Source: Hexactinellida sp. DTS-2022 (taxonomy: Eukaryota > Porifera > Hexactinellida). From it: a stretch of DNA of 64,000 nt. The translations under genes were made by a program, and so were the position numbers. The notes under the pieces are model-generated. The model worked only from the letters and a program-made list of their open reading frames with translations, did no database searches and had not been told where the DNA came from. Positions 9,525 to 63,470 of the stretch are shown here, piece after piece. Where the stretch lies: contig JAPNXP010000002.1 in assembly GCA_028753945.1 (NCBI GenBank), positions 1,240,001 to 1,304,000 on the forward strand, in the 5' to 3' direction. The first letter of the stretch is position 1. Every line of letters starts with the position of its first letter.

Positions 9525-9918
9525 ATTCTTGTGTTTTCAGCAGAATTCGTTCCATCAAACAGATACTTCGTATCGCGTAAATTCAATAGTACTACTTACT
9601 ATTTAAAGCTTTGCCTATCCGACATTATTTCCAACTTCAAGTTGAATCAATACTATATTTATGAAAATACAACAAGAGATAATGTTGTATTTTACAAGAT
9701 GGATGTATCCAATATCTCTATTGATGATCTACTATCAAATATTACCAATAAAGATCGGTTTCATAATTTGAATGCTAAGCTGGATACCTGTCTGGTAGAC
9801 TACTCAATTGATTTGTTTGTCAGATCAACAAAATGTGAATGTAACATTCAACGGTCTTTAGATCGTAACGTACTCACTGTATACGAGATGTGCCATATGC
9901 CAGCGTGTTCTTGTGAAG
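9525..9918 (+). CDS. Receptor gene 1, exon 2 (cassette B1)
   Basis: Follows the acceptor TTATCTAG in phase 0 and reads ILVFSAEFVPSN..., matching FLMFSVILNPSN and VMVITSILNPSN at the starts of the other B exons. About 131 codons of an unrecognised extracellular domain with spaced cysteines (CLVDYS, CECN, ACSCE), ending in phase 1. At the position of the donor in other B exons (GAAG|GTAATT) the sequence is GAAG|GAAAGT, so the splice site is non-canonical (GA) or lost. Only an end at 9918 restores frame with the next exon. Reading through the 58-nt gap meets a stop at 9981-9983. No family name can be given for the B domain. Confidence 0.75.
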
Positions 9919-9976
9919 GAAAGTTAATTTATAATAGACAATATTATTTGTTTTTATATTGTTTTTCTTTCTTTAG

Positions 9977-11028
9977 ATTATAACTGTTCTTGTAACGGCA
10001 CAAATGACTATATAGGGAGTGGACAGAACTGTAGTTACGACTCTGACGGAGACATGTATCCTGACTATGGAGTTTTTTGTTGTAGTATTAACGAGTACTG
10101 TGTGGATAACTGTCGATTCACATACAACCCTTTACAAGAAGACTGTGATAATGACGGTATTGGAGATGCATGTACCAGCTATCTGGATTTCGATCCTGCT
10201 ATAGTAACACTAATGAACAGATCCATTGTGTTAGAACCAGGGATTAAAAACTTCAGTTTGAACCTGGCCTTGTCTCACAACTCTAGCTACACAGTGAGTG
10301 TACAGAGCTGTGAGGTTGGATGGATAGAGTGTCAGCACTATTTACTTAACAACCACAGTTATTCAGGCAGTGAAGAGATTGAACTGTATCTGGATTCTGA
10401 ATGGAACTTGAATTACCTTTTGCTCTCAATATCCCATCACGGGAATGATAGCAGAGTTGGATTGTTGGTGATCTCTCAGAACTTATCTGTTCCTGAATTG
10501 CAATCTCGTTCTTTCGTCTCCGGGGACAGAGTATGGGTGGGAGTGTCTGTGAGCTCCTGTACCTCTGAGTGTCCTAATTTGAATTCCTCTCTGTGGTCTG
10601 TCGGCTTGAGAGACGTGAATATATCTGGTATGACTGATTATTTTTCATTGGAGTTAGAGTACTGTGAGTTCTTACCGAGTGTCCACTGGTTTGGATTCAG
10701 TTCATATGTGTACTCTGTTTTTGTGAAGCAAGCCACCGTTCTAATGAACGGTCGTTACAAGCTTCTTGTATCTGACAGTATTTCCTATGAAGAAGCACTA
10801 TTCACACTTAACTATGTTGGACTGCAGAATTGTAGTGACGAGCTGTCCTTCGGTTTATACTGGAATTGGACCTATGTATCCATGTCCCAGACTATTGCAT
10901 GTTCACATCTAATGGGGGAGTATGGTGCCGTTGATAACATTAACTTGACCATCAGTAGGAGCTGTGAAACTGATTCTAATTTCTCATCTCTGGCTGCTGA
11001 GTGTAGCTTTGACGGAGACGGGGATCAA
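9977..11028 (+). CDS. Receptor gene 1, exon 3 (cassette A1: TSP3 + ectodomain + HRM-like)
   Basis: Starts in phase 1 after CTTTCTTTAG. The first residues complete a short EGF-like motif (NCSCNGT...GSGQNC). A thrombospondin type-3 Ca-binding motif follows (DSDGDMYPD, then DNDGIGDAC). Then comes a ~220-residue unrecognised domain with many N-glycosylation sites, paralogous to residues ~505-745 of exon 1. It closes with an HRM-like segment (YWNWT ... SRSC ... AEC). The exon ends GGGGATCAA|GTGAGT in phase 0. The A/B phase pattern makes B+A a frame-neutral cassette of 483 codons in most copies. Confidence 0.82.
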
Positions 11029-11094
11029 GTGAGTATATACGTATTTTACGTAATATCTTTATTATACAATCTTTAACCGCTAAATGTATTATTA

Positions 11095-11240
11095 CGAGCC
11101 CTTCGGTCTCGGTCGCTTTGCGACGTATCGGAGCTACGCACCTCAAGTTAACGGCCTTACTCCTCACCCTTTCTACCATGGAAAATGGCAGAAAGGGAGT
11201 TATATACATCCCTTTAGAAAATTTCCATAGTTTTAACTTG
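11095..11240. repeat. Truncated copy of the CGAGCCCTTCGG retroposon-like repeat
   Basis: It starts CGAGCCCTTCGGTCTCGGTC, the same 5' end as the full copies at 22666, 23567 and 32459, then diverges. No 3' tail is seen. Confidence 0.6.
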
Positions 11241-11249
11241 TTTTTCATA

Positions 11250-15085: not shown

Positions 15086-15112
15086 AATATACGTAGATTA
15101 TGTTTTATGTAG

Positions 15113-15509
15113 TTTTTGATGTTTTCTGTGATTCTCAATCCGTCCAATTTTTTCTTCTCATCTCTTGACAATGTCACTCTCAAGTATAGCTATATCCATG
15201 ACTGTTTGAATCTCGTAGATAGTGAATTCAACCTTTTGGATTTCTACTATATGGATATTGTTCTCCGGGATAATATTGTTTACTTTAGATTCAATACTTC
15301 TCTCTTCACAGTTGGTAATATCAGCTCTATCTTCACCAGAGATTGGTTCAAGAAAGTGCGTATTGCATGGAGTAACTGTGTCAATGAATTCTCTATTGCA
15401 AACTTTGTGCAATCACTCAAGTGCAATTGTATTCATGACTTCAGTAACAGGGATCCGGATCAGGTGTCTATTGTGGAGATTTGTCATAAACAAGCTTGTT
15501 CCTGCGAAG
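15113..15509 (+). CDS. Receptor gene 1, exon 4 (cassette B2)
   Basis: Phase 0 start after TTTTATGTAG (FLMFSVILNPSN...), phase 1 end at TGCGAAG|GTAATT. 132 codons. Same domain type as exon 2, with cysteines at the equivalent places (NCVNEFS, CNCIH, ACSCE). Closely similar to the B exons at 52935, 55869, 60140 and 63074 of gene 2. Function unknown; extracellular by context. Confidence 0.8.
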
Positions 15510-16757: not shown

Positions 16758-17812
16758 ATAATACCTGTTCTTGTATTGGCACAAATAACTATATAGGGAG
16801 TGGACAGAACTGTAGTTACGACTCTGATGGAGACATGTATCCTGACTATGGAGTTTTTTGTTGTAGTATTAACAAGTACTGTGTGGATAACTGTCGATTC
16901 ACATACAACCCTTTACAAGAAGACTGTGATAATGACGGTACTGGAGATGCATGTACCAGCTATCTGGATTTCGATCCTGTTAGAGTAACACTAATGAACA
17001 GATCCATTGTGTTGGAACCAGGGATTAAAAACTTCACTTTGAACCTGACCTTGTCTCACACCTCTAGCTACACAGTGAGTGTACAGAGCTGTGAGGTTGG
17101 ATGGATAGAGTGTCAGCACTATTTACTTAACAACCACAGTTATTCAGGCAGTGAAGAGATTGAACTGTATCTGGATTCTGAATGGAACTTGAATTACCTT
17201 TTGCTCTCAATATCTCATCACGGGAATTATAGCAGAGTTGGATTGTTGGTGATCTCTCAGAAATTATCTGTTCCTGAATTGCAATCTCGTTCTTTCGTCT
17301 CCGGGGACAGAGTATGGGTGGGTGTGTCTGTGAGCTCCTGTACCTCTGAGTGTCCTAATTTGAATTCCTCTCTGTGGTCTGTCGGCTTGAGAGACGTGGA
17401 TATATCTATTACTGATTATTTTTCATTGGAGTTAGAGTACTGTGAGTTCTTACCGAGTGTACACTGGTTTGGATTCAGTTCATATGTGTACTCTGTTTTT
17501 GTGAAGCAAGCCACCATTCTAATGAACGGTCGTTACAAGGTCATTGTGACAGGAGACAGTATCAGAGGAGATTCTACATTCGACCTGTTATACCCAGGTC
17601 TATATCATGCATGTGAAGGCTACCTAGATCTTGGACTGTATTGGAATTGGACAAGCATGGGAGATCTACGTCCACTTGAGATCCCGTGTTCTGATTTGAT
17701 TGGAATCTTTAATCAGCATTCTAGTGGGAAATACTTAACCAGGGAATGTGGAACAGAAGGAGATTGGTCTGACATTTCTGGACAATGTGCTTTCAACGGA
17801 TCTACGAAACAG
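16758..17812 (+). CDS. Receptor gene 1, exon 5 (cassette A2, mosaic)
   Basis: Phase 1 start after TTTCTCTAG, phase 0 end at ACGAAACAG|GTACTT; 1055 nt. It has the EGF-like start, the TSP3 motif (DSDGDMYPD, DNDGTGDAC), the unnamed ectodomain and the clearest HRM-like end of the A exons (YWNWT ... PC ... TREC ... GDW ... C). The first ~780 nt are nearly identical to exon 3. After NGRYK (near 17540) the sequence changes abruptly to a diverged version, which suggests gene conversion or unequal exchange. The last A exon before the terminal B exon. Confidence 0.82.
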
Positions 17813-17968: not shown

Positions 17969-18353
17969 GTAATGGTAATTACTTCAATTTTGAATCCTTC
18001 AAACAGATTATTTCTACCAAATGTTTCTTACGGCAATCAATGTCTTGGTGAATTAATGTACAATCTCTCTTTTGAAGACACATCATTAACTAATCCAGAT
18101 TATAAAGAAATTGACAATATAGCATATTTTCGACTGGATGCCACGTTAGCTTCAACAAAAGTGATAGAAAGGATAGCGAATACAGTAATCTTTCCAATCC
18201 TTAAAACACTATTAGAGACTTGTATTGATGACTACTCTGTTTATGTACTCAGCCAATCAACCATTTGTGAATGTAATCCTAACACTAAAGAGGCTGTTAG
18301 AGACAGAGTTAACTTTGTCAACCTCTGTGACGAACTTGCCTGTTCATGTGGGG
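17969..18353 (+). CDS. Receptor gene 1, exon 6 (terminal cassette B3)
   Basis: Phase 0 start after TTTACTTAG (VMVITSILNPSN...), phase 1 end at GGGG|GTAAGT, a strong donor. 128 codons with the B-type cysteine pattern (CIDDYS, CECN, ACSC). It is the most diverged B copy, consistent with a fixed position next to the membrane-proximal exon. It joins in frame (G|AT) to the exon at 38321. Confidence 0.78.
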
Positions 18354-28841: not shown

Positions 28842-28970
28842 CTGTGCCGACTATACTATAGTATAGTGGCCCAGTATTGGAATCACTGCCTTTATTATTA
28901 TTACTGTGCCGACTATACTATAGTATAGTGGCCCAGTATTAGAATCACTGCCTTTATTATTATTTTTTTT
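28842..28970. repeat. Minisatellite, two copies of the ACTATACTATAGTATAGT unit
   Basis: Two head-to-tail ~55-bp units directly after the hairpin ending at 28836, followed by a T-run and the next array unit head (TCTCCGTAGACGG). Confidence 0.75.
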
Positions 28971-38320: not shown

Positions 38321-41300
38321 ATTCGGGCGAAAATTGCAAGTGCACAAAGGAATTTTATGGAGATGGAGTGAATTGCAGTTCTGATACAGATGGAGACGGA
38401 TTGCCTGACAACTTTGTCCTGTGTGACGGTACTACCCCTTGTATCGACAAATGTCCTTTCCTGTCGAGATGTCCTTCCCAGTCGAGATCTGGTAATATTC
38501 CAGAAAAATGTGAATTATTTTGTCCTCATGAATTAGACTATATTTTCAAAATAACCTGGCCGTGTACGTCTGGGGGAGCCAAGAGATATGTCGATTGTCC
38601 AGAAGGGAAAACTAGAGCTTCACGCATCTGTAGTCCTCTTGGTATTTGGGATAATCCCAATACAACTCTCTGTATCTCAGAAAAATACTCTCATTTTACA
38701 GGAAGTACCACTGAGAACCTTAATAAACTATTGGAAATTAGTGAGGTAGCTACTGCTGTATCAGGAGACGTGTTAATAACACTTGATATTGTTACTCAGA
38801 GCAGCGATGAGGTCCCGCAAGATTTTGAGACTCAAAAGAATGTTATTACGCAGACTACTAGCATTATTAGCAACCTAGTGAAAGATGAAAACAGAGATGT
38901 GTTAGAAAATACGCAAATAGAGCAACCTGTAGTGCAGCAGATAATAAGTGCTATTACCAATCTAGCCACTAAAATTAGTGAGAGCGGAGATTTCATATTA
39001 AACAAGTCAGTAAATGTTTTTGTTGAGACGAGACTGCTTATTGCTGGTGATAAGGACCAAGAGATAAAGTTAACTGCGGGTAATATTAAGATAGGTAAGG
39101 ACAACGAAAGTCCTTCAATCGTAATACCTGTTGATAATTCTAAAAATAGGAGTTCGAGCTTTGTGGTAATAAAGAATATTGGAAGCTTGCTCTCGAACTT
39201 CTCTAAATTTTTAAGTTTTGGCGAATTTGGAATCAATATTAATTATTTTAAGGAAGTTTCCATTGTAACACCCATAATAACGCTAAACATTACACAGAAT
39301 GGAACACCAGTTGATGAAATAAATGTTAACATGGCTCTACCAATTGAATATAATGATGAGAGTAATGAGAGTGGAAAGAATACCTACTTTAGACCAATTT
39401 GTGTTTATATTAATGATGAGGATCCAAAAAATCCTCAGATACAGCAAGAAAATTATACACCAGGAGATAGTGTTAAGTTAGTTAAATGTCACGCGAGAAG
39501 GAGTGCTTCTTTCCTGGTGCTTGTGGGTATCAATGATCTGGCTGATCAATCAATCGTGTTGAACATTATCTCTTATGCAGGATGCTCTCTCTCCACCATA
39601 TGTCTGACTATAAGCATTTCCATCTACATCCTGTTCGGATACAAACTGTTGAAGAAGATATATCATTTCGTACACTTCAACCTGGCCGTCTCCTTGCTAA
39701 TCACCTATTTGGTGTTCTTGGTGGGACTCGAGCTGCCCTATGTAAACGTATTAGAGTATATTCCCTGTAAGGCCGTGTCTGCTTTGATGCAGTACATTCT
39801 TCTAGTCATGTTTCTATGGATGTTGATGGAGGGAGTTGTGATATTCATAATGATCTATTTACCGTTCAGAAAATTCACGAAGAAATACTTTGTTGCTTTC
39901 TTTTGTATTTCCTGGATTTGTCCTGTGTTGTATGTCTTGGCAGTATCACCTTGGTTCCATCCTTACCTGATCTCACCTCCTTACTTCGGCAGTTCTCAAC
40001 CCGCAAACACAACTAACAGCACCAATATCACTCTGACTACCAACAATGCTAGTGTCCCTGTTATTAATCCTATTCCTGGATTCTGTTGGATACACAACGA
40101 TAAGGATACTAACCTCATATTCGCCGTCACTGTTCCCATTCTGTTGATTATTATTATCAACATACTTCTATTTGTCAGTGTAGCTATACGTTGTTTTTTG
40201 TTAATACGCCAACAGAAAAGTATCCATCTACTAGCCAGATCTCAAAAAATAGGTCTACGTTTGTTCCGTTTATCCCTCGTCTTATTCCCAGTGCTAGGAT
40301 TCGGTTGGACTTTCGGTCTTATTGCTATAATCTCACATGTTGCGATATTTGCTTGGATTTTTACAATCTTAGGAAGTGGACAAGGAATCTTGATTCTATT
40401 TTTCGTAATTCTCATCAGGAAGGATATCAGACTCTCTATACTACGTGCGCTTAATTTGAAAGCCAAACTTTCATCACTATCTAGCAAGATAACAAGTCAG
40501 TTCACCAGACAGACCGCAACTGCTCCTTTCTATTGGAATCTTGCTAGGATGCTTGAGAATGAGTTGCTCACACGTAGCACTCTTGAGTTAGCCAAACAAC
40601 AAGGTCTAATCTCTCCCATTGTTGAGATAGACGAATTGATTTCATATCTAGAAGAAAAACCTTGGGAAACTCATGCGAATCCCGAAGCATTGGATGAATG
40701 GGACCTGCAACACTTGCGTGATCAGTTGGTTCCCGACACAGAGCCTGAAAAGCCTGGACTCCCACCCATCTTTGAAATCACTCAGCTCTTGACATTTCTC
40801 GAAGAGCGTGCTGCAGAAGAGAGATGTAGATTCACAGTAGTGACTGATATCAGTGCGCGTGGCTCCTCTATCTTTGTTACTGAGGTCAATGAGTATACAA
40901 AAACAGAGGATACTCATTCTAGAGAAATTATTTATCAAGGTAATGATCCATTTGCCAACTCTAGCAGTAAAACAGAATTGGATACAGCACTTGATGTGAA
41001 TGTTGGTAGCCGAATAGATCTTCCTGAAGTTTTACAAGCGAAAGAAGAACATAATGTTGAGGCTGAAACTCCTAATATACTGGACGTTGAAAATGACCTT
41101 GATAGAGAGTCTTGTGTTGAAGACGGACCTCGTTCAGAACTGAGTGAAGGCATTGCTCCCTCGAATGAAGTTAACAACTTTGAAATCCCTGAACTGAACG
41201 AATTAGAAATTGGTCTTGCAGAATTAGATAAAGCAGCTGCTCTCATTTCGGATAAACCAATCCTTCGTATTCCTAGACAAGTCATAGAACTTAAACCAGA

Positions 41301-41619
41301 TAAGTTGCCAACTTTAAAGTCTGTAAAAGACCACCAAAGAATCCAGAAAGAATTTCCACTGCAAATTGTAGAACGTGATGCCAAGCCTGTTACTAACAGC
41401 ACCCAAAGTAAAGTTACATTAAACGATGTTTCTTCTTTGTTCCCATTCCTTAATTCAGACTTTCCAAAAAACGATTTACCTCATACTGAGACTGTTGATA
41501 GCGCTACTCTACCACAGCAAGAAGCAATAGAACCAATAGATGCGCTTGACATGTTGATTAGTCAGATTGACGATCTTCTGACTGATATTGATACGATAAA
41601 CCCCTTCGCAAAAATGTAA
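38321..41619 (+). CDS. Receptor gene 1, final exon: TSP3, HRM, GAIN/GPS, 7TM (class B2 adhesion GPCR)
   Basis: Phase 1 start after TTTCTTTCAG (G|AT joins exon 6), stop at 41617-41619. Order: EGF-like end (CKCTKEFYGDGVNC) and TSP3 (DTDGDGLPD); HRM (WPC ... CPEG ... SRIC ... GIW ... C; ~38510-38675); GAIN-like region (~38700-39480); GPS at ~39485-39525; seven helices (~39550-40450) with family marks FLWMLMEG in TM3, GFCWI in loop 2, GFGWTFG in TM6 and GSGQG in TM7; then a ~390-residue acidic cytoplasmic tail of unknown function. The GPS reads CHARRSASFLVL: it lacks the canonical HL/T cleavage triad and the upstream W...C pair, so autoproteolysis is unlikely. HRM through tail in one uninterrupted exon is unusual for the family. 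A plasma-membrane receptor; ligand and G protein unknown. Confidence 0.92.
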
Positions 41620-44365: not shown

Positions 44366-44531
44366 TTTTTCTTATTATAATTAAAAATATATTCAAATCT
44401 GAATCAATTAGCAAAGAAATTAGATAGTCATCAAAATCAACAACTCTGCTTATTTGGGTACATGGCTTACCCATTAATTCTCTTTAATTTATACCTACAA
44501 ATATTTATATTAGTTTACTACGTAACTCGTT

Positions 44532-48273: not shown

Positions 48274-50367
48274 ATGTATATTCTATTAATCTTCACTCTA
48301 CTCTTTTCATATCTAAACAACTCTCAATCCCAGTGTCCCATTACCTGCAATACAGATACGATATCATTAAATTGTCACATTACAATCGCTAGTCCCGAGC
48401 TAAATGACAGTTGGATAGAATCATGTTACGAGTCATCAAGTATGATACAGATCCTCCAAATTTTTATAACAAATTACCCATACACTACATTTCCAATCAA
48501 CTCCCAACCAAACTTTACAATCAACAGCATAATCATACATTTCTACCAGAGTGAGTCTCTCAACCTAACTTCCTCCTCCTACAACTATAACATAAGCTCT
48601 TTAACATTGTCTGGTTCTAATTCCTTGACGATTGGACTGAGGGACTTCCTGTCTCACTTCCCTAGCCTCACATCTCTGTACATTATGAACAACACACTGC
48701 TACGAGACATTGAGGAGAGGAGCTTTCTCTCTCTGACAGGACTACAGATGCTGACAATAGAGGGAGTGGGTATTGAGAGGATAGGAAATAATCTATTGGA
48801 GGGGTTGTCTCGTCTGATAAGATTGGAGTGGACTAACTCTAGCACATCTGTTATAGAGTCTTCTGCTCTCTTCCATCTAACTTCCCTTCGGTACTTGAAT
48901 CTACAGAATAATAGGATTGCTTCTATTCCAGATTCTCTATTCAGGAGGTATCTACCTAACTTGCAGCATGTTTCACTCGCCAGCAACCAACTCAGCACTT
49001 TGCCATATCAAGCTTTTGAACAAACTCCTCTCCTGTCTCTTCTCAGATTGGATTACAATCCTCTCAACTGTACCTGTGATTTATATTGGATGTACTATGC
49101 CATGTTGAACTACAATCTAACCATCACTCTCTCTTGTGCTAAACAGAACATCACTTGCAACCAAACATCACTCTGCTACACGACACCGACCACCTATACC
49201 ACAGCTCTTAACACGAGTCTCATATCAACAAACTGTAACGATGATGATGTTTATGAATGTATATCTCCTTCTCAACCGTGTCAACACATCTGTATTAACT
49301 CACCTACTGGATTCAGTTGTTCCTGTGATGATGGGTACATCAATTTCTGTTCTAATTCCCCCTGTTGTATTCCATCCCGATATTCCTGTCCCATCAACCT
49401 GACAGAGATCCTACAGGATGATAGTGTACTACAGGTATCTCCCCTACAGACAGCAGGGAACAGGTCTATCATACTCTCCAGTGCTGAGGATCAGATCACT
49501 CTCAACCTGTCTATCTCTGTCAGCAGTCTCGTGCTGGTAGTCAGCTGTCAGGTAGACTGGCAGGAGTGTGTTGACATAGCTGTAAATAGGACCCTCTCAG
49601 ACTCCTTTTCTCTGGCATTCTCTCTTCCTTCTGCTCTCTCCTCTCCTCTGCACTACTTACTGCTGCGTGTGGAGAAGACAGAGACTGGGAGTGTACAGTT
49701 GTATGAGAGACTGCTGGTAGTAATTCAGAGCTCTGACCTACCTACTCTTTACACCCGATCACTTGTCGCCTCATCCGTGAGCAGTGACGTGTCGATAGGT
49801 GTAGCTGTCAGTTCTCTGGAACCGAGTCTCTGCTCAAAAGAGTGTCCTGATCTGAATGTGTCTCTGTTCTCAGTTGGACTGATAGCAGTGGACATAAGCG
49901 GGTGGGAGGGAGTGTCAGTGCGGTTAGTGAGCTGTGTGTCTCTGGCCACTCAGCACTGGATGAGCTACAGCAGCTATCTGTTCTCCATTGAGTGGAGGAA
50001 TGTGAGTAGTGAGCTAAATGGGAGATACCAGTTGAGAGTGAATGGGAGTGGTCTGGTGGCAGGAGTGGCTGAGTTCACTGTAGACTATCCTGTCTCGGAT
50101 GAGGCATGCGAGGGTAGACTGGAGATGGGTGTGTATTGGAACTGGACTAGCAACGGGACTACCAGCACGGTTCCTTGTTATGAGCTTTTTGGACCGCAGA
50201 GCAATGAAGTTGATGTGTATCCTAACCAAGTAATCGAGACATCCTGTCAGGATCAAGATCTCTTTTATCCAAATTCCTCTCAAACCCTGTCCAGCTCTTG
50301 TGGACGCGATTTAGAATGGGGAAACACTATAGCCTCAGAATGTTTCCTCTCTAGTGAATATTTGAAG
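48274..50367 (+). CDS. LRR adhesion-receptor gene 2, exon 1
   Basis: ATG at 48274 opens a signal peptide (MYILLIFTLLFSYLNNSQS). Then an N-cap, LRRs (~100-262), an LRR C-cap (NPLNCTCDLYW, ~263), a short EGF-like domain (~328-362) and the same unnamed ectodomain plus HRM-like end as gene 1. Phase 0 end TTGAAG|GTTTGT. 698 codons, against 830 in gene 1: the glycosylated Asn/Thr-rich linker of gene 1 is absent. Two blocks are ~98-99% identical to gene 1 by eye (48522-48924 and 49362-50367), while the N-cap and the C-cap/EGF regions between them are strongly diverged. No 7TM exon for this gene lies in the window; by paralogy one is expected downstream. Confidence 0.85.
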
Positions 50368-51357: not shown

Positions 51358-51751
51358 ATTCTTGTGTTTTCAGCAGAATTCGTTCCATCAAACAGATACT
51401 TCGTATCGCGTAAATACAATAGTACTACTTACTATTTAAAGCTTTGCCTATTCGACATTATTTCCAACTTCAAGTTGAATCAATATTATATTTATGAAAA
51501 TACAACAAGAGATAATTTTGTCTTTTACAAGATGAATGTATCCAATATCTCTATTGATGATCTATTATCAAATATTACCAATAAAGATCGGTTTCAAAAT
51601 TTGAATGCTATGCTGGATACCTGTCTGGTAGACTACTCAATTGATTTGTTTGTCAGATCAACAAAATGTGAATGTAACATTCAACGGTCTTTAGATCGTA
51701 ACGTACTCACTGTATACGAGATGTGCCATATGCCAGCGTGTTCTTGTGAAG
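51358..51751 (+). CDS. Receptor gene 2, exon 2 (cassette B1')
   Basis: Phase 0 start after TTTTATCTAG, same length (394 nt) as exon 2 of gene 1 and nearly identical to it. It shares the altered donor GAAG|GAAAGT. Here the 57-nt gap to the next exon is open and a multiple of three, so retention would add 19 residues without a stop, unlike gene 1. Confidence 0.75.
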
Positions 51752-51808
51752 GAAAGTTAATTTATAATAGACAATCTTATTGTTTTTATATTATTTTTAT
51801 TTCTCTAG

Positions 51809-52860
51809 ATTATAACTGTTCTTGTAATGGCACAAATAACTATATAGGGAGTGGACAGAACTGTAGTTACGACTCTGACAGAGACGGGTATCCTGACTAT
51901 GGAGTTTTTTGTTGTAGTATTAACGAGTACTGTGTGGATAACTGTCGATTCACATACAACCCTTTACAAGAAGACTGCGATAATGACGGTATTGGAGATG
52001 CATGTACCAGCTATCTGGATTTCGATCCTGCTATAGTAACACTAATGAACAGATCCATTGTGTTAGAACCAGGGATTAATAACTTCAGTTTGAACCTGGC
52101 CTTGTCTCACAACTCTAGCTACACAGTGAGTGTACAGAGCTGTGAGGTTGGATGGATAGAGTGTCAGCACTATTTACTTAACAACCACAGTTATTCAGGC
52201 AGTGAAGAGATTGAACTGTATCTGGATTCTGAATGGAACTTGAATTACCTTTTGCTCTCAATATCCCATCACGGGAATGATAGCAGAGTTGGATTGTTGG
52301 TGATCTCTCAGAACTTATCTGTTCCTGAATTGCAATCTCGTTCTTTCGTCTTCGGGGACAGAGTATGGGTGGGAGTGTCTGTGAGCTCCTGTACCTCTGA
52401 GTGTCCTAATTTGAATTCCTCTCTGTGGTCTGTCGGCTTGAGAGACGTGAATATATCTGGTATGACTGATTATTTTTCATTGGAGTTGGAGTACTGTGAG
52501 TTCTTACCGAGTGTACACTGGTTTGGATTCAGTTCATATGTGTACTCTGTTTTTGTGAAGCAAGCTACCATTCTAATGAACGGTCGTTACAAGCTTCTTG
52601 TATCTGACAGTATTTCCTATGAAGAAGCAATATTCACACTTAACTATGTTGGACTGCAGAATTGTAGTGACGAGCTGTCCTTCGGTTTATACTGGAATTG
52701 GACCTATGTATCCATGTCCCAGACTATTGCATGTTCACAGCTAATGGGGGAGTATGGTGCCGTTGTTAACGTTGACTTGACCATCAGTAGGAGCTGTGAA
52801 ACTGATTTTAATTTCTCATCTCTGGCTGCTGAGTGTAGCTTTGACGGAGACGGGGATCAA
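51809..52860 (+). CDS. Receptor gene 2, exon 3 (cassette A1')
   Basis: Phase 1 in, phase 0 out (GATCAA|GTGAGT). EGF-like start, TSP3 (DSDRDGYPD, DNDGIGDAC), unnamed ectodomain, HRM-like end. It keeps the CCSINEYC variant of gene 1 A1. The next three copies have CDFINKYC, but 3' of that point it matches them almost base for base. Confidence 0.82.
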
Positions 52861-52934
52861 GTGAGTATATTTACGTAATTTCTTTATTATACAATCTTTA
52901 ACCACTAAATGTATTATTTTTATGTTTTATGTAG

Positions 52935-53331
52935 TTTTTGATGTTTTCTGTGATTCTCAATCCGTCCAATTTTTTCTTCTCATCTCTTGACAATGTCACT
53001 GACAAGAATAGCTATATACATGACTGTTTGAATCTCGTAGACAGTGAATTCAACTTTTTGGATTTCTACTATATGGATACTGTTCTCCAGGATAATATTG
53101 TTTACTTTAGATTCGATACTTCTCTCTTCACAGTTGATTATATCAGCTCTATCTTCACCAGAGATTGGTTCAAGGAAGCGCGAAATGCATGGAGTAACTG
53201 TGTCAATGAATTCTCTATTGCAAACTTTGTGCAATCACTTAAGTGCAATTGTATTCATGACTTCAGTAACAGGGATCCGGATCAGGTGTCTATTGTGGAG
53301 ATTTGTCATAAACAAGCTTGTTCCTGCGAAG
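52935..53331 (+). CDS. Receptor gene 2, exon 4 (cassette B2')
   Basis: Phase 0 in, phase 1 out at TGCGAAG|GTAATT; 397 nt. B-type domain of unknown fold with cysteines in NCVNEFS, CNCIH and ACSCE. Differs from the next copy by a few bases, including NHLSAI/NHSSAI-causing and silent changes in overlapping frames; in the coding frame it is almost unchanged. Confidence 0.8.
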
Positions 53332-53577
53332 GTAATTTGTACTTTATCATTTTATTATCCCAGCTATTGTAAATACGCTTATAATCCTGGTCTGATGCAA
53401 TTTTCATACGCCTAAATCACGAATTAATGTTGCGGTATAGGAGAAGATTCCAAATTTTCGCGCTCCTAATTCAAATTTTCCAAAAATCATACTCCAAAAG
53501 GAGCGTCTCGCGCTCCTGAATATATCCTTGCTCGCCACATACATATACATAATCCAACAGAAGTTAGTCAGTTAGTT

Positions 53578-53728
53578 CAGTGTTTCTCAAAGTGTGGGTA
53601 GCGATTGGCGATCGGTCGCCACCTAATCTTGTGGGGTCGCTACTTTTAGCTTATAGGGACGCGATTTAGTTCAGCTACTTAAATGATGGAAATTTGGGGT
53701 CGCGATATAAAAAGTTTCAGAACCCCTG
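53578..53728. mobile_element. hAT MITE in each tandem unit
   Basis: The ends CAGTGTTTCTCAAAGTGTGG and AGAACCCCTG. The same insertion as 15586-15736 in gene 1. Repeats at 56512-56662, 60783-60933 and 63717-63867 with the unit. Confidence 0.78.
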
Positions 53729-54742
53729 AGTTATGTCATAAGTAGAATACACTCACGCATTACTTGTGTGTGCGTTTAGTAACGCTCGTATTGGATCAAT
53801 AATTCGCTGCACCTCTTACCATTGGGAATTTCTTCGTATCGATGTTGTAACAACTTCTCGCTATGCATTCATTGTATGGGACCTAGTTATCATCCGAGTT
53901 TTACTGAGATATTCCCACCTGTTCGTTAGTAGTTAAAATATTTCGACCACAATTAATAATAGGGATATGTGCCTTAAAAGCGATAATTATTGTCATAGAT
54001 CGATTAGAGCATTTATCTCCTTCCCTATCATGCTAGGCATTGATAAATCAAACTATACCCGACTTACATCTATTCACTATAATTCGGGTAATTCGGGCTA
54101 CCTGGCAATAATCTGTTTTCTGTTTAAACCAGTCATTCAATCTTCACTCATCATGGTGGCCGTGAGAACTTTCTATCCCCCATCGCTTCGATTCTATCCG
54201 AACAAATAACAAACACACAACCGAGTTTTAATAATATAGATTATTGTCATTATTGCTAATATTTAACATTTAACGCACTTTAAAATAGCCATAATTTGAT
54301 AATAACATGAATATAAATTATGGCATTCATTATTGCCCAACGATTGCATATTATGAAAGAGCACTCACAAATTACAATACGTATTCGCAAAGCGAATTTT
54401 AAACGTTTTTAGAGCATCTCATTATCATTATATCATCAAATAATGAGATAGGAAAATAATGAGGTGTTCCCGCCCGCATCTTCATGTGGAGCTCTGAAAC
54501 AATATTAGCATTAACACTGGCCTAAACTCCACAAGACCTAATTCTTGATTTTTACCTTAATTGCGAAGTATATCTTGCTTTGTACACAAATAAACTGTTA
54601 TAATTAATGCGTGCAGGGAAATTCCAGGGAATTCCTGCGCATGTATTCAGGGTTTCATACAAGGGGGACCCTTCCCTGCTTGAGTCCCACCCCCAGAAAT
54701 TTGGAAAGTATGATGTCATTTTATCATTGTTTATTTCTCTAG

Positions 54743-55794
54743 ATTATAACTGTTCTTGTAATGGCACAAATGACTATATAGGGAGTGGACAGAACTGTAG
54801 TTACGACTCTGACAGAGACGGGTATCCTGACTATGGAGTTTTTTGTGATTTTATTAACAAGTACTGTGTGGATAACTGTCGATTCACATACAACCCTTTA
54901 CAAGAAGACTGCGATAATGACGGTATTGGAGATGCATGTACCAGCTATCTGGATTTCGATCCTGCTATAGTAACACTAATGAACAGATCCATTGTGTTAG
55001 AACCAGGGATTAATAACTTCAGTTTGAACCTGGCCTTGTCTCACAACTCTAGCTACACAGTGAGTGTACAGAGCTGTGAGGTTGGATGGATAGAGTGTCA
55101 GCACTATTTACTTAACAACCACAGTTATTCAGGCAGTGAAGAGATTGAACTGTATCTGGATTCTGAATGGAACTTGAATTACCTTTTGCTCTCAATATCC
55201 CATCACGGGAATGATAGCAGAGTTGGATTGTTGGTGATCTCTCAGAACTTATCTGTTCCTGAATTGCAATCTCGTTCTTTCGTCTCCGGGGACAGAGTAT
55301 GGGTGGGAGTGTCTGTGAGCTCCTGTACCTCTGAGTGTCCTAATTTGAATTCCTCTCTGTGGTCTGTCGGCTTGAGAGACGTGAATATATCTGGTATGAC
55401 TGATTATTTTTCATTGGAGTTGGAGTACTGTGAGTTCTTACCGAGTGTACACTGGTTTGGATTCAGTTCATATGTGTACTCTGTTTTTGTGAAGCAAGCT
55501 ACCATTCTAATGAACGGTCGTTACAAGCTTCTTGTATCTGACAGTATTTCCTATGAAGAAGCAATATTCACACTTAACTATGTTGGACTGCAGAATTGTA
55601 GTGACGAGCTGTCCTTCGGTTTATACTGGAATTGGACCTATGTATCCATGTCCCAGACTATTGCATGTTCACAGCTAATGGGGGAGTATGGTGCCGTTGT
55701 TAACGTTGACTTGACCATCAGTAGGAGCTGTGAAACTGATTTTAATTTCTCATCTCTGGCTGCTGAGTGTAGCTTTGACGGAGACGGGGATCAA
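54743..55794 (+). CDS. Receptor gene 2, exon 5 (cassette A2')
   Basis: Phase 1 start after TTTCTCTAG, phase 0 end; 1052 nt. TSP3, unnamed ectodomain, HRM-like end. It has CDFINKYC and GINNF. The preceding open sequence from 54607 is intron, not coding. Confidence 0.82.
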
Positions 55795-55868
55795 GTGAGT
55801 ATATTTACGTAATTTCTTTATTATACAATCTTTAACCACTAAATGTATTATTTTTATGTTTTATGTAG

Positions 55869-56265
55869 TTTTTGATGTTTTCTGTGATTCTCAATCCGTC
55901 CAATTTTTTCTTCTCATCTCTTGACAATGTCACTGACAAGAATAGCTATATACATGACTGTTTGAATCTCGTAGACAGTGAATTCAACTTTTTGGATTTC
56001 TACTATATGGATACTGTTCTCCAGGATAATATTGTTTACTTTAGATTCGATACTTCTCTCTTCACAGTTGATTATATCAGCTCTATCTTCACCAGAGATT
56101 GGTTCAAGGAAGCGCGAAATGCATGGAGTAACTGTGTCAATGAATTCTCTATTGCAAACTTTGTGCAATCACTCAAGTGCAATTGTATTCATGACTTCAG
56201 TAACAGGGATCCGGATCAGGTGTCTATTGTGGAGATTTGTCATAAACAAGCTTGTTCCTGCGAAG
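55869..56265 (+). CDS. Receptor gene 2, exon 6 (cassette B3')
   Basis: Same boundaries and phases as 52935-53331, shifted by 2934 bp, and essentially identical. Confidence 0.8.
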
Positions 56266-57009
56266 GTAATTTGTACTTTATCATTTTATTATCCCAGCTA
56301 TTGTAAATACGCTTATAATCCTGGTCTGATGCAATTTTCATACGCCTAAATCACGAATTAATGTTGCGGTATAGGAGAAGATTCCAAATTTTCGCGCTCC
56401 TAATTCAAATTTTCCAAAAATCATACTCCAAAAGGAGCGTCTCGCGCTCCTGAATATATCCTTGCTCGCCACATACATATACATAATCCAACAGAAGTTA
56501 GTCAGTTAGTTCAGTGTTTCTCAAAGTGTGGGTAGCGATTGGCGATCGGTCGCCACCTAATCTTGTGGGGTCGCTACTTTTAGCTTATAGGGACGCGATT
56601 TAGTTCAGCTACTTAAATGATGGAAATTTGGGGTCGCGATATAAAAAGTTTCAGAACCCCTGAGTTATGTCATAAGTAGAATACACTCACGCATTACTTG
56701 TGTGTGCGTTTAGTAACGCTCGTATTGGATCAATAATTCGCTGCACCTCTTACCATTGGGAATTTCTTCGTATCGATGTTGTAACAACTTCTCGCTATGC
56801 ATTCATTGTATGGGACCTAGTTATCATCCGAGTTTTACTGAGATATTCCCACCTGTTCGTTAGTAGTTAAAATATTTCGACCACAATTAATAATAGGGAT
56901 ATGTGCCTTAAAAGCGATAATTATTGTCATAGATCGATTAGAGCATTTATCTCCTTCCCTATCATGCTAGGCATTGATAAATCAAACTATACCCGACTTA
57001 CATCTATTC

Positions 57010-58338
57010 CAGGGGTGGGCAAACTACGGCCCGCGGGCCGGATCCGGCCCGCCTACGATATTTAACCGGCCCGCTTGACCTCAACAGAAGTCCATATTTT
57101 TGGTAGTCTAGGCCACATAAAGCATACCTGCCAACCCATTGGCGGAGAATTTTGCATAAAATCCTTAAAATCAGGGGTGGCGAGTACGATATATGTTTCG
57201 AGTTAAATTTAGAATTGATCAGAATAGGAATACATTTACAGTAATAATAATTTCCCATCCATCCTTAAATCAGGAAAAACTGTTTTGAATGTCAAAAACC
57301 TACTAGAAGATCGAAATCATATGCTACCTACAATGCACGATTAGTTAATTATATATAGGTTCAACACTGACAACACATGTTATATGTACTTGACAGTAAT
57401 GGTTTACTTCACAGTTGTGGTGTACTTAACATTTAACAGGTCAGATGGCTTCAATGCATTGGGTCACAAATAGAGGTATACAATAATTCAAAAATAATCG
57501 CATCGAATATTTATTATGACTAATATGTACATATCGTTAAGAAATGTAGTAGCAAAGCCAGAAATATTTATAAAATCTGGGGTGGCGCGACTATAGCCCG
57601 ACACCCTGGTTCAAAATCTGGAGTGGCGCGCCACCCCAGCCACCCCTAACTCTCCGCCTATGTGCCAACCTATTTGAATCATATCCCTGTACAGGGCTCC
57701 AATTATCCCCTGTACATTGGCCAAAATCCCTGTACACCTCCCAAAAAATATCTCGCTCGCTGCGCTCGCTCGTCCAAGGAATTACTATGCACATGAATAA
57801 ATATAGAAACAACATTGAGCCTTTATGTAGTCAATGCAGAATGCATAGCAGAATATACTATCACATCTGCAGACATTTTTAGACATTATTTACTCATAAT
57901 TAGTAAACTAAAATCCCAATATTCATGGAATAAATCCCTGTACGCCTGTACAGAATGGCCAAATTGTTAAAATTCTTTTACTGTACAGGGATCCCTGTAC
58001 GATTGGTAGGTATGATAAAGTTTATCAAAATATGTCAAGATCAGTAATGTTAGATGAATACCTTTCTCACTTATGTGTATTGCTACTTTAGCCAGAGAAC
58101 CAAATTTTGATAAACTAATAAAAACGCAGGATCAACTGCACAACTCCCATAGTTCTTTATACTTCCTAATATGTCATTAAATTAGTTTATACTTCATCAG
58201 TATCATAGTTTATTTCCCATTAATGCTACTGCAAATAAAATAAAAAATGTGTTAAATAGGAAGTGTTCACTCTCAGGCCCGCAACACTATGACATTTATC
58301 CATTTTGGCCCGCGGCCTAAAAAGTTTGCCCACCCCTG
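57010..58338. mobile_element. 1329-bp non-autonomous hAT element in one tandem unit
   Basis: The ends CAGGGGTGGGCAAACT and AGTTTGCCCACCCCTG are perfect inverted repeats flanked by the exact 8-bp duplication ATCTATTC (57002-57009, 58339-58346). The three sister units have the intact empty site. There is no transposase frame. Inside, a further pair of inverted ends (CATACCTGCCAACC near 57123, GATTGGTAGGTATG near 58014) marks a probable nested element with CCCTGTACAGGG motifs. Confidence 0.93.
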
Positions 58339-59013
58339 ATCTATTCACTATAATTCGGGTAATTCGGGCTACCTGGCAATAATCTGTTTTCTGTTTAAAC
58401 CAGTCATTCAATCTTCACTCATCATGGTGGCCGTGAGAACTTTCTATCCCCCATCGCTTCGATTCTATCCGAACAAATAACAAACACACAACCGAGTTTT
58501 AATAATATAGATTATTGTCATTATTGCTAATATTTAACATTTAACGCACTTTAAAATAGCCATAATTTGATAATAACATGAATATAAATTATGGCATTCA
58601 TTATTGCCCAACGATTGCATATTATGAAAGAGCACTCACAAATTACAATACGTATTCGCAAAGCGAATTTTAAACGTTTTTAGAGCATCTCATTATCATT
58701 ATATCATCAAATAATGAGATAGGAAAATAATGAGGTGTTCCCGCCCGCATCTTCATGTGGAGCTCTGAAACAATATTAGCATTAACACTGGCCTAAACTC
58801 CACAAGACCTAATTCTTGATTTTTACCTTAATTGCGAAGTATATCTTGCTTTGTACACAAATAAACTGTTATAATTAATGCGTGCAGGGAAATTCCAGGG
58901 AATTCCTGCGCATGTATTCAGGGTTTCATACAAGGGGGACCCTTCCCTGCTTGAGTCCCACCCCCAGAAATTTGGAAAGTATGATGTCATTTTATCATTG
59001 TTTATTTCTCTAG

Positions 59014-60065
59014 ATTATAACTGTTCTTGTAATGGCACAAATGACTATATAGGGAGTGGACAGAACTGTAGTTACGACTCTGACAGAGACGGGTATCCTG
59101 ACTATGGAGTTTTTTGTGATTTTATTAACAAGTACTGTGTGGATAACTGTCGATTCACATACAACCCTTTACAAGAAGACTGCGATAATGACGGTATTGG
59201 AGATGCATGTACCAGCTATCTGGATTTCGATCCTGCTATAGTAACACTAATGAACAGATCCATTGTGTTAGAACCAGGGATTAAAAACTTCAGTTTGAAC
59301 CTGGCCTTGTCTCACAACTCTAGCTACACAGTGAGTGTACAGAGCTGTGAGGTTGGATGGATAGAGTGTCAGCACTATTTACTTAACAACCACAGTTATT
59401 CAGGCAGTGAAGAGATTGAACTGTATCTGGATTCTGAATGGAACTTGAATTACCTTTTGCTCTCAATATCCCATCACGGGAATGATAGCAGAGTTGGATT
59501 GTTGGTGATCTCTCAGAACTTATCTGTTCCTGAATTGCAATCTCGTTCTTTCGTCTCCGGGGACAGAGTATGGGTGGGAGTGTCTGTGAGCTCCTGTACC
59601 TCTGAGTGTCCTAATTTGAATTCCTCTCTGTGGTCTGTCGGCTTGAGAGACGTGAATATATCTGGTATGACTGATTATTTTTCATTGGAGTTGGAGTACT
59701 GTGAGTTCTTACCGAGTGTACACTGGTTTGGATTCAGTTCATATGTGTACTCTGTTTTTGTGAAGCAAGCTACCATTCTAATGAACGGTCGTTACAAGCT
59801 TCTTGTATCTGACAGTATTTCCTATGAAGAAGCAATATTCACACTTAACTATGTTGGACTGCAGAATTGTAGTGACGAGCTGTCCTTCGGTTTATACTGG
59901 AATTGGACCTATGTATCCATGTCCCAGACTATTGCATGTTCACAGCTAATGGGGGAGTATGGTGCCGTTGTTAACGTTGACTTGACCATCAGTAGGAGCT
60001 GTGAAACTGATTTTAATTTCTCATCTCTGGCTGCTGAGTGTAGCTTTGACGGAGACGGGGATCAA
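59014..60065 (+). CDS. Receptor gene 2, exon 7 (cassette A3')
   Basis: Same as 54743-55794, shifted 4271 bp. It differs by GIKNF instead of GINNF. Phase 1 in, phase 0 out. Confidence 0.82.
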
Positions 60066-60139
60066 GTGAGTATATTTACGTAATTTCTTTATTATACAAT
60101 CTTTAACCACTAAATGTATTATTTTTATGTTTTATGTAG

Positions 60140-60536
60140 TTTTTGATGTTTTCTGTGATTCTCAATCCGTCCAATTTTTTCTTCTCATCTCTTGACAATG
60201 TCACTGACAAGAATAGCTATATACATGACTGTTTGAATCTCGTAGACAGTGAATTCAACTTTTTGGATTTCTACTATATGGATACTGTTCTCCAGGATAA
60301 TATTGTTTACTTTAGATTCGATACTTCTCTCTTCACAGTTGATTATATCAGCTCTATCTTCACCAGAGATTGGTTCAAGGAAGCGCGAAATGCATGGAGT
60401 AACTGTGTCAATGAATTCTCTATTGCAAACTTTGTGCAATCACTCAAGTGCAATTGTATTCATGACTTCAGTAACAGGGATCCGGATCAGGTGTCTATTG
60501 TGGAGATTTGTCATAAACAAGCTTGTTCCTGCGAAG
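60140..60536 (+). CDS. Receptor gene 2, exon 8 (cassette B4')
   Basis: Copy of the B exon at 55869, identical by eye. Phase 0 in, phase 1 out. Confidence 0.8.
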
Positions 60537-61947
60537 GTAATTTGTACTTTATCATTTTATTATCCCAGCTATTGTAAATACGCTTATAATCCTGGTCTGA
60601 TGCAATTTTCATACGCCTAAATCACGAATTAATGTTGCGGTATAGGAGAAGATTCCAAATTTTCGCGCTCCTAATTCAAATTTTCCAAAAATCATACTCC
60701 AAAAGGAGCGTCTCGCGCTCCTGAATATATCCTTGCTCGCCACATACATATACATAATCCAACAGAAGTTAGTCAGTTAGTTCAGTGTTTCTCAAAGTGT
60801 GGGTAGCGATTGGCGATCGGTCGCCACCTAATCTTGTGGGGTCGCTACTTTTAGCTTATAGGGACGCGATTTAGTTCAGCTACTTAAATGATGGAAATTT
60901 GGGGTCGCGATATAAAAAGTTTCAGAACCCCTGAGTTATGTCATAAGTAGAATACACTCACGCATTACTTGTGTGTGCGTTTAGTAACGCTCGTATTGGA
61001 TCAATAATTCGCTGCACCTCTTACCATTGGGAATTTCTTCGTATCGATGTTGTAACAACTTCTCGCTATGCATTCATTGTATGGGACCTAGTTATCATCC
61101 GAGTTTTACTGAGATATTCCCACCTGTTCGTTAGTAGTTAAAATATTTCGACCACAATTAATAATAGGGATATGTGCCTTAAAAGCGATAATTATTGTCA
61201 TAGATCGATTAGAGCATTTATCTCCTTCCCTATCATGCTAGGCATTGATAAATCAAACTATACCCGACTTACATCTATTCACTATAATTCGGGTAATTCG
61301 GGCTACCTGGCAATAATCTGTTTTCTGTTTAAACCAGTCATTCAATCTTCACTCATCATGGTGGCCGTGAGAACTTTCTATCCCCCATCGCTTCGATTCT
61401 ATCCGAACAAATAACAAACACACAACCGAGTTTTAATAATATAGATTATTGTCATTATTGCTAATATTTAACATTTAACGCACTTTAAAATAGCCATAAT
61501 TTGATAATAACATGAATATAAATTATGGCATTCATTATTGCCCAACGATTGCATATTATGAAAGAGCACTCACAAATTACAATACGTATTCGCAAAGCGA
61601 ATTTTAAACGTTTTTAGAGCATCTCATTATCATTATATCATCAAATAATGAGATAGGAAAATAATGAGGTGTTCCCGCCCGCATCTTCATGTGGAGCTCT
61701 GAAACAATATTAGCATTAACACTGGCCTAAACTCCACAAGACCTAATTCTTGATTTTTACCTTAATTGCGAAGTATATCTTGCTTTGTACACAAATAAAC
61801 TGTTATAATTAATGCGTGCAGGGAAATTCCAGGGAATTCCTGCGCATGTATTCAGGGTTTCATACAAGGGGGACCCTTCCCTGCTTGAGTCCCACCCCCA
61901 GAAATTTGGAAAGTATGATGTCATTTTATCATTGTTTATTTCTCTAG

Positions 61948-62999
61948 ATTATAACTGTTCTTGTAATGGCACAAATGACTATATAGGGAGTGGACAGAAC
62001 TGTAGTTACGACTCTGACAGAGACGGGTATCCTGACTATGGAGTTTTTTGTGATTTTATTAACAAGTACTGTGTGGATAACTGTCGATTCACATACAACC
62101 CTTTACAAGAAGACTGCGATAATGACGGTATTGGAGATGCATGTACCAGCTATCTGGATTTCGATCCTGCTATAGTAACACTAATGAACAGATCCATTGT
62201 GTTAGAACCAGGGATTAAAAACTTCAGTTTGAACCTGGCCTTGTCTCACAACTCTAGCTACACAGTGAGTGTACAGAGCTGTGAGGTTGGATGGATAGAG
62301 TGTCAGCACTATTTACTTAACAACCACAGTTATTCAGGCAGTGAAGAGATTGAACTGTATCTGGATTCTGAATGGAACTTGAATTACCTTTTGCTCTCAA
62401 TATCCCATCACGGGAATGATAGCAGAGTTGGATTGTTGGTGATCTCTCAGAACTTATCTGTTCCTGAATTGCAATCTCGTTCTTTCGTCTCCGGGGACAG
62501 AGTATGGGTGGGAGTGTCTGTGAGCTCCTGTACCTCTGAGTGTCCTAATTTGAATTCCTCTCTGTGGTCTGTCGGCTTGAGAGACGTGAATATATCTGGT
62601 ATGACTGATTATTTTTCATTGGAGTTGGAGTACTGTGAGTTCTTACCGAGTGTACACTGGTTTGGATTCAGTTCATATGTGTACTCTGTTTTTGTGAAGC
62701 AAGCTACCATTCTAATGAACGGTCGTTACAAGCTTCTTGTATCTGACAGTATTTCCTATGAAGAAGCAATATTCACACTTAACTATGTTGGACTGCAGAA
62801 TTGTAGTGACGAGCTGTCCTTCGGTTTATACTGGAATTGGACCTATGTATCCATGTCCCAGACTATTGCATGTTCACAGCTAATGGGGGAGTATGGTGCC
62901 GTTGTTAACGTTGACTTGACCATCAGTAGGAGCTGTGAAACTGATTTTAATTTCTCATCTCTGGCTGCTGAGTGTAGCTTTGACGGAGACGGGGATCAA
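61948..62999 (+). CDS. Receptor gene 2, exon 9 (cassette A4')
   Basis: Copy of the A exon at 59014 shifted 2934 bp, identical in protein by eye (GIKNF variant). Confidence 0.82.
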
Positions 63000-63073
63000 G
63001 TGAGTATATTTACGTAATTTCTTTATTATACAATCTTTAACCACTAAATGTATTATTTTTATGTTTTATGTAG

Positions 63074-63470
63074 TTTTTGATGTTTTCTGTGATTCTCAAT
63101 CCGTCCAATTTTTTCTTCTCATCTCTTGACAATGTCACTGACAAGAATAGCTATATACATGACTGTTTGAATCTCGTAGACAGTGAATTCAACTTTTTGG
63201 ATTTCTACTATATGGATACTGTTCTCCAGGATAATATTGTTTACTTTAGATTCGATACTTCTCTCTTCACAGTTGATTATATCAGCTCTATCTTCACCAG
63301 AGATTGGTTCAAGGAAGCGCGAAATGCATGGAGTAACTGTGTCAATGAATTCTCTATTGCAAACTTTGTGCAATCACTCAAGTGCAATTGTATTCATGAC
63401 TTCAGTAACAGGGATCCGGATCAGGTGTCTATTGTGGAGATTTGTCATAAACAAGCTTGTTCCTGCGAAG
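63074..63470 (+). CDS. Receptor gene 2, exon 10 (cassette B5'), gene continues past window
   Basis: Last coding exon visible. Phase 1 donor TGCGAAG|GTAATT at 63470/63471. The following intron sequence matches earlier units up to 64000, so at least one more A exon is expected outside. Confidence 0.8.

Follow-up and report, generated by a model that had tools for sequence, protein, structure and literature searches.

Two adjacent adhesion-type receptor genes of a glass sponge with ectodomains that appear to be concatemers of a duplicated two-exon coding unit

A stretch of 64,000 nucleotides from the glass sponge Hexactinellida sp. DTS-2022 (contig JAPNXP010000002.1, here C11:1240001-1304000 with C11 as chromosome label, and called the window below) holds the whole of gene 1 (6374-41619) and the beginning of gene 2 (from 48274 onward), both belonging to the 7tm_2 family of G protein-coupled receptors (GPCRs). 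In each gene two kinds of exon, called A and B, alternate between a first exon (E1) with a leucine-rich repeat (LRR) head and a terminal exon (T) that carries the seven-transmembrane (7TM) domain. The analysis rests on genomic sequence from one assembly of 112.4 Mb in 18 contigs, which contains 71 matches to 7tm_2, and gene 2 was traced past the window edge on the same chromosome as far as its 7TM exon. The gene structure is secure and unusual, and it points to tandem duplication within a receptor gene as the source of very long extracellular stalks.

Gene 1 has the order E1-B1-A1-B2-A2-B3-T, with seven exons in an open spliced model of 3,021 amino acids, and all six of its introns are GT-AG. 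Gene 2 has the order E1-(B-A)x7-B-T, with 17 exons that encode 5,147 residues with no stop and 16 GT-AG introns out of 16; the part outside the window, comprising three more A exons, three more B exons and the 7TM exon, lies at C11:1304001-1318434. An initial annotation had proposed two pairs plus a terminal B for gene 1 and at least four pairs plus a B for gene 2. Both counts agree with the exon models within the window, and the chromosome extends the second to seven pairs plus a B (Table 1). Reading genes 1 and 2 as a single giant gene is ruled out by the stop of gene 1 at 41617-41619 and by the separate signal-peptide exon of gene 2.

Table 1. Exons and other features of the window, with related genes on the same chromosome. 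Positions are those of the window unless preceded by C11; a slash marks an exon border.
Feature	Position	Strand	Description
Gene 1 E1	6374..8863	+	phase 0 to 0; signal peptide, LRR, EGF-like, core domain, HRM-like tail; open frame; LRR_8 64.4 bits; donor AAG/GTTTGT
Gene 1 B1	9525..9912	+	388 nt; phase 0 to 1 only via donor TCTT/GTGAAG; natural donor position reads GAAAGT
Gene 1 A1	9977..11028	+	1052 nt; phase 1 to 0
Gene 1 B2	15113..15509	+	397 nt; phase 0 to 1
Gene 1 A2	16758..17812	+	1055 nt; phase 1 to 0; HRM 24.1 bits
Gene 1 B3	17969..18353	+	385 nt; phase 0 to 1
Gene 1 T	38321..41619	+	starts in phase 1; EGF/TSP3 head, HRM, GAIN, 7TM, cytoplasmic tail, stop; acceptor TTTCAG/AT; 7tm_2 104.6 bits; ADGRD1 E 1.7e-23
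P-element-like THAP gene	44526-47519		between genes 1 and 2; THAP domain 44.5 bits, then TNP-like RNase H and GTP-binding insertion domains
Gene 2 E1	48274..50367	+	phase 0 to 0; LRR_8 69.3 bits
Gene 2 B1	51358..51745	+	388 nt with upstream donor; B1-A1 also a single open frame, 51358-52878
Tandem array of 2,934-bp units (A exon, intron, B exon, intron)	51808..64000	+	unit starts 51808, 54742, 59013, 61947; extends beyond window
Gene 2 A1	51809..52860	+	phase 1 to 0
Gene 2 B2	52935..53331	+	phase 0 to 1
Gene 2 A2	54743..55794	+	phase 1 to 0
Gene 2 B3	55869..56265	+	phase 0 to 1
hAT-like insertion	57010..58338	.	1,329 bp; in intron of second unit of gene 2 only; 16-bp inverted ends, 8-bp target duplication ATCTATTC
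Gene 2 A3	59014..60065	+	phase 1 to 0
Gene 2 B4	60140..60536	+	phase 0 to 1
Gene 2 A4	61948..62999	+	phase 1 to 0
Gene 2 B5	63074..63470	+	phase 0 to 1
Gene 5	C11:826842-832436		same three exons and phases as genes 3 and 4; 1,627 aa; no A exon
Gene 3	C11:1410112-1417607		three exons, phases 0-0, 0-1, 1-stop; 1,750 aa; no A exon
Gene 4	C11:1419821-1424813		three exons, phases 0-0, 0-1, 1-stop; 1,594 aa; no A exon

Searches of the genome with A and B place these genes in a small family. The A query found 17 places, namely nine A exons, four first exons and four partial matches (on C3, C12, C11 and C9), and the B query found 13: the 11 B exons of genes 1 and 2, with a single place in each of two other genes. 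Exon A is missing altogether from three relatives on this chromosome (genes 3 to 5), and the B exon of gene 5 is only 23-29% identical to the others, so that the five genes carry 0, 0, 0, 2 and 7 pairs. Two more genes with an EGF/TSP3-HRM-like last exon lie at C3:20809-24253 and C12:2356210-2358867, and the upstream exons of the former look by eye like a von Willebrand A domain. Pattern and tblastn searches of 84,980 prokaryote species genomes gave 46 pattern matches, none confirmed, and the same searches of viral contigs gave one, unconfirmed; this absence from prokaryotes and viruses is as expected for an animal-type gene and does not extend to other animals, as the collections searched included no eukaryotes.

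Assignment to the adhesion class rests on the terminal exon and on the form of the ectodomain. The 7tm_2 scores of gene 1 (Table 1) and gene 4 (67.2 bits) exceed the cut-off of 20.6 bits, and the best solved relatives of the gene 1 T exon in PDB are ADGRD1 and ADGRL3 (E 2.6e-18). Residues 62-208 of T match the HRM-GAIN region of BAI3 (4dlo, E 7.3e-6), residues 315-539 match residues 191-412 of the ADGRD1 chain, and the HRM scores 25.2 bits, just below its cut-off of 26.2. The ectodomains of genes 1 to 4 are long and multi-domain (2,332, 4,616, 1,219 and 1,205 residues), with 81 N-glycosylation sequons in gene 1 and 139 in gene 2. The GPS cleavage motif, which reads H-L/F-S/T, is common in this class and not universal, and the genes are therefore still filed as adhesion-type GPCRs although the products of genes 1 to 3 are probably uncleaved, judging by their predicted residues at the site.

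The phases of the exons allow pairs to be added without loss of frame. All nine A exons (six in the window, three beyond) run from phase 1 to phase 0, as had been claimed, with acceptor CTAG or TTAG and donor CAA/GTGAGT or CAG/GTACTT; seven are 1052 nt long and the others 1055 and 1058. The common B and A together make 397 + 1052 = 1449 nt, which confirms the proposed 483 codons. The parallel claim that every B exon runs from phase 0 to phase 1 stands for nine of the 11, in which a GT donor is found at the homologous position (GAAG/GTAATT or GGGG/GTAAGT), while the first B of each gene needs a weaker site upstream. Frame neutrality itself holds in that any number of pairs joins in frame and genes with 0, 0, 0, 2 and 7 pairs exist as open genes, but its description as a cassette system is not supported as given, since tandem duplication of a unit bounded by matching introns must produce it. 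The A and B copies are homologous, so their phases are inherited rather than independent observations, and the pair numbers of the relatives therefore back the modular idea better than the phases do.

The same arrangement could also serve regulated splicing, in which transcripts would skip or include pairs and cells would choose a stalk length. E1 ends in phase 0, B leads from 0 to 1 and T starts in phase 1, so E1-B-T is in frame with any number of pairs, and it is the actual gene form of three relatives. The phase pattern comes from duplication, however, and predicts nothing on splicing, and the introns that follow the A exons of gene 2 are short (74 nt in six cases, 147 nt in one), which would rather favour constitutive removal. 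As the copies in gene 2 are near-identical, skipping could alter length and hardly content. We consider regulated splicing an unlikely explanation of the array, and prefer tandem duplication, with stalk length probably set in the genome.

The origin of exon A can be read from its two parts, which were compared with 12 exon products (seven T, five E1), the head being tested with three A exons. Residues 1-68 match all seven T products at E 2e-6 or lower, and none of the E1 products scores below E 1. From residue 75 onward all five E1 products match, with E between 8e-13 and 3e-43, and none of the T products falls below E 0.02. By this comparison exon A is a chimera, with the head of a last exon and the tail of a first exon. 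Its heads are closer to the T heads of the distant relatives on C3 and C12 (45-46 bits) than to those of the cluster (18-27 bits), which implies that A is old. An ancestral A, with E1 and T as its decayed pieces and with arrays that shrank instead of growing, would account for this age, and for head, core and tail standing together in one A exon when E1 and T each hold only part. Three of the five genes lack A, including the divergent gene 5, and shrinkage would need repeated clean loss of A; we hold this direction to be improbable and growth from a gene without A to be the better reading.

Sequence divergence separates an old array from a recent expansion. The ratio of nonsynonymous to synonymous divergence (dN/dS) and dS were estimated from seven of nine A exons and nine of 13 B exons of genes 1 to 4, the units left out being near-identical; block-identity comparisons used seven of nine A exons, and the B identity table nine of 14 B exons. 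Between genes 1 and 2, B exons in the same position are 92-96% identical and those in different positions 28-33%, and dS between B positions is mostly saturated, so the two-pair array predates the split of the two genes. Within gene 1, exons A1 and A2 show 22 differences over 780 sites, followed by a sudden rise to 145 over the next 264, a break matched in 0 of 1000 shuffles. On this pattern we regard the head and core of A as homogenised, and the A tail and B as old, divergent and position-specific. Comparable blocks are seen between the T exons of genes 2 and 3, where identity is 38-66% for most of GAIN but reaches 97-100% in the region of TM1-TM4. The last exons of genes 1 to 3 are mosaics, with a diverged GAIN and a near-identical part from GPS to the transmembrane region; gene 1 has its own cytoplasmic tail, and genes 2 and 3 share one. 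A comparison of E1 between genes 1 and 2 gives a mostly diverged LRR region (29-66% per 40-residue block) and a block of about 120 residues at 85-95%, which looks like a conversion tract.

Within gene 2, units 3, 4 and 5 are identical across 2,934 bp including introns, unit 2 is one base from them when its 1,329-bp insertion is set aside, unit 1 differs from the other copies at 8-9 positions, and unit 6 has a different intron. Between genes 1 and 2, introns that can be aligned share 81-95% identity (5-19% differing), and the amplification is therefore far younger than the gene pair. Identical units are also what a false expansion would look like, with units multiplied or mis-joined in the assembly. 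The insertion in unit 2, which from its ends we presume to be hAT-like, has a perfect target duplication and an empty site in four other units of gene 2; this, the private differences of unit 1, the different intron of unit 6 and the independent two-pair array of gene 1 argue against such an error, and at least the series B1-A1-B2-A2-B3 with several units would survive it in any case. An artefactual unit number is accordingly doubtful, and we retain a real amplification. The copies combine two types of sequence: the intron upstream of the unit copies is of A2 type at 40 of 76 informative sites, of A1 type at 15 and of neither at 21, and the exon is of A1 type at 9 of 9 sites to position 94, at 12 of 13 up to 757 and at 153 of 153 in the tail. 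An A2-type intron joined to an A1-type exon would be the expected trace, although not proof, of unequal exchange between A1 and A2 together with conversion. The comparison of gene 2 A1 with A2 gives seven changed codon sites that are nonsynonymous and none synonymous; positive selection on these differences was rejected, as the changes are too few and five fall in one short conversion-like stretch.

We conclude, with a probability of roughly 0.7, that intragenic tandem duplication has made concatemers of the ectodomains in these two neighbouring adhesion-type GPCR genes, which thus hold a coding tandem repeat. The ancestral gene had the three exons that are retained in three relatives, E1 (phase 0-0), B (about 130 residues, 0-1) and T (1-stop). 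Exon A would have arisen by the joining of a T head to an E1 tail, most simply through the fusion of two tandem three-exon genes into E1-B-A-B-T, which would drop the GAIN-7TM part of the first gene and the signal peptide and LRR of the second. The position-by-position identity shows that the form E1-B1-A1-B2-A2-B3-T was in place before genes 1 and 2 separated. Gene 2 then underwent a recent amplification of its A1-B2 unit, introns included, to the six copies seen, for which unequal crossing-over at the homogenised A exons is the probable mechanism. Each copy adds 483 residues and leaves the frame untouched, giving ectodomains of about 2,330 (gene 1) and 4,620 (gene 2) residues against about 1,210 in the unexpanded form. 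Genomic copy number would then likely set the reach of the receptor and the number of homogeneous modules: the ligand-binding LRR head may be kept off the membrane by a glycosylated stalk whose length depends on unit number, and a long-stalked receptor that is not cleaved could signal through pull or reach. The number of units in the receptor probably varies between alleles, and stalk length may differ between individuals.

Several observations weigh against this account in one part or another. The first B of genes 1 and 2 reads GAAG/GAAAGT at the natural donor position, its GT gone (9905-9930, 51738-51763), and phase 1 is reached in both genes only through the weaker TCTT/GTGAAG, nine to ten bases upstream of the expected border, which leaves an exon of 388 nt and B1-A1 introns of 64 nt in gene 1 and 63 nt in gene 2; read through, B1-A1 is open for 506 codons in gene 2 and meets a stop at 9981-9983 in gene 1. 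The GAIN family PF16489 scores 15.5 bits in gene 1 and 14.4 in gene 4, below its cut-off of 26.5, and Pfam GPS gave no hit in the family searches of gene 1 or gene 4. By eye no cleavage triplet is recognisable in genes 1 to 3 (CHARRSASFLVL), where the region reads CHARRSASFLVLVG, and gene 4 has HFT/SFTVL in the region THFTSFTVLIG, which would satisfy the motif. The unit copies are of the other type at four of five sites in 104-116, and again at a lone site at 543, so a single crossover is insufficient and conversion is needed too. The last 80 or so residues of A, the HRM-like tail, also match a T product weakly (best E 0.0024) and are less discriminating; such a match would be expected with an HRM present in both. 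The direction of the step that produced A rests on parsimony, zero pairs being found in three of five genes.

Two further readings concern the use of the array. Gene 2 could be a hypervariable repeat, with individuals differing in their number of 483-residue modules, in which exchange through the A core keeps the modules uniform and the A tail and B stay specific to their position, and the resulting code of length and position might mark individuals or cell types in adhesion, as self-recognition by a signalling 7TM receptor; we regard this as a speculative extension with little probability. A decaying, unexpressed array, suggested by the lost donor of B1 in both genes and the degenerate cleavage site of genes 1 to 3, is the least likely of all, given that the 15,444 coding nt of gene 2 and the other four models have no stop or frameshift and that dN/dS lies between 0.47 and 0.86 in pairwise comparisons of E1 among genes 1-4 and of T among genes 1-3, evidence to which the identical units add nothing.

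The unit was also said to carry a TSP3 calcium-binding motif and an HRM-like segment, and these stand in part. The TSP3 motif is supported by similarity to thrombospondin-2 (E 1.6e-15) and COMP (E 2.1e-11), with residues 1-70 of A aligned to the EGF-to-TSP3 start of thrombospondin-2, but Pfam TSP_3 reaches only 18.9 and 21.9 bits against a cut-off of 25. The HRM-like segment is weaker: the A2-type tail stays below the cut-off of 26.2 bits (Table 1), the A1-type tail has no Pfam hit, and the A profile matches the ectodomain of the GIP receptor weakly (E 0.028). Apart from the thrombospondin-like heads and the weak HRM match nothing was found for the A core, and NCBIfam gave only two matches to A, both far under their cut-offs. 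No Pfam or NCBIfam family was found in the B2-type exon, and the B profile found nothing in PDB, its lone hit having E 0.5. The spliced B3-plus-T peptide gave weak matches only (Toxin_9, E 0.025; EGF_3, E 2.2), which we take as chance.

The initial annotation knew of no named GPCR family with this architecture. In the literature searched this holds for the domain content, but the principle has been published for LPA KIV-2, CR1 and the EGF-TM7 receptors. The KIV-2 unit of LPA measures about 5.6 kb, contains two exons (160 and 182 bp) and occurs in up to 40 copies, whose number sets the length of the protein (PMC11201333). Gene 2 likewise has a two-exon, intron-bearing unit, a multiple of three in length and in frame at any number, with copies near-identical including introns and flanked by older homologues. 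LPA encodes a secreted plasma protein with measured variation, whereas the unit here is 2.9 kb with 1,449 nt coding, belongs to a 7TM receptor and is known from one assembly. CR1 is a single-span membrane protein. Its allotypes differ by long homologous repeats (PMC7487969). CR1 resembles the present genes as a cell-surface receptor with a large repeated ectodomain block, but its block consists of seven SCR domains and it is no GPCR.

In the EGF-TM7 (ADGRE) receptors, which are adhesion GPCRs with repeated stalk modules, the number of EGF domains varies in frame through splicing. Their unit is a single EGF domain, with no LRR head, and the unit here is a two-exon block of 483 residues with one EGF/TSP3-like head and core, an HRM-like tail and B, so that the stalk is not one of EGF domains. 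EMR2, CD97 and EMR3 show concerted evolution by gene conversion (PMC2720389). The EGF-to-TSP3 start of the A head is shared with thrombospondin-2 and COMP, but only residues 1-75 of A match; there are at most two TSP3-like motifs per unit in place of a TSP3 wire, no match to the C-terminal lectin-like domain was found, and the product is a membrane receptor. Among sponges, 40 adhesion receptors have been described from Amphimedon, of which at least eight carry an HRM, two have repeated SRCR domains and 28 have a GPS (12 without); the extract of that survey contains neither LRR, leucine-rich, thrombospondin nor tandem and names no TSP3 and no A/B repeat (PMC4302439). Those receptors resemble the present genes in having an HRM beside 7tm_2, in the repeated ectodomain modules that two of them show, and in the lack of a GPS in some. 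The choanoflagellate survey counts LRR and HRM as adhesion domains, and its text mentions neither thrombospondin nor TSP3 (PMC12716839); exon duplication and thrombospondin type 3 are likewise absent from the extract of a 2026 adhesion-GPCR review. Open-access searches for adhesion GPCRs with tandem duplication of ectodomain or exons gave only one insect survey, and among the papers listed by a further search none joins adhesion G protein-coupled with thrombospondin type 3. No description of this architecture was thus found in the open-access literature, which is not proof of absence.

A large, intron-bearing coding repeat of the kind known from LPA and CR1 and a repeated adhesion-GPCR stalk are here combined in one signalling receptor, and unexpanded relatives (0, 0 and 0 pairs) stand beside expanded genes (2 and 7). 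If copy number varies between individuals, the locus would allow the tuning of adhesion-GPCR signalling by ectodomain length to be studied as a natural experiment. Exon A, being a chimera, offers a traceable path from a short to a very long receptor, in which tandem genes fuse and the inner signalling parts are lost. The initial annotation had not noted that A is chimeric, that the amplification is recent, that A1 and A2 share a recombination boundary or that the first B has lost its donor.

Beyond the receptor exons, the genome has at least 16 homeodomain matches, which together with the 71 matches to 7tm_2 would suit a sponge, and COX1 has no match in its contigs. The last intron of gene 1 spans 19,967 nt, and diverged repeats fill 19700-38000, many about 1,200 bp apart and with palindromic pieces such as the 29-bp arm pair 22010-22038/22106-22134; these are probably nested non-autonomous transposons. 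Extra exons in the 19.7-38 kb stretch were rejected, as no A or B match occurs there. At the left edge an open frame of 967 codons (3-2906) enters the window, coiled-coil and proline-rich, with no Pfam family at E 0.1. On the 3' side of gene 2, an LRR first-exon fragment at C11:1318725-1319070, with 97% DNA identity to gene 1 over 335 bp, is a relic of a further family member.

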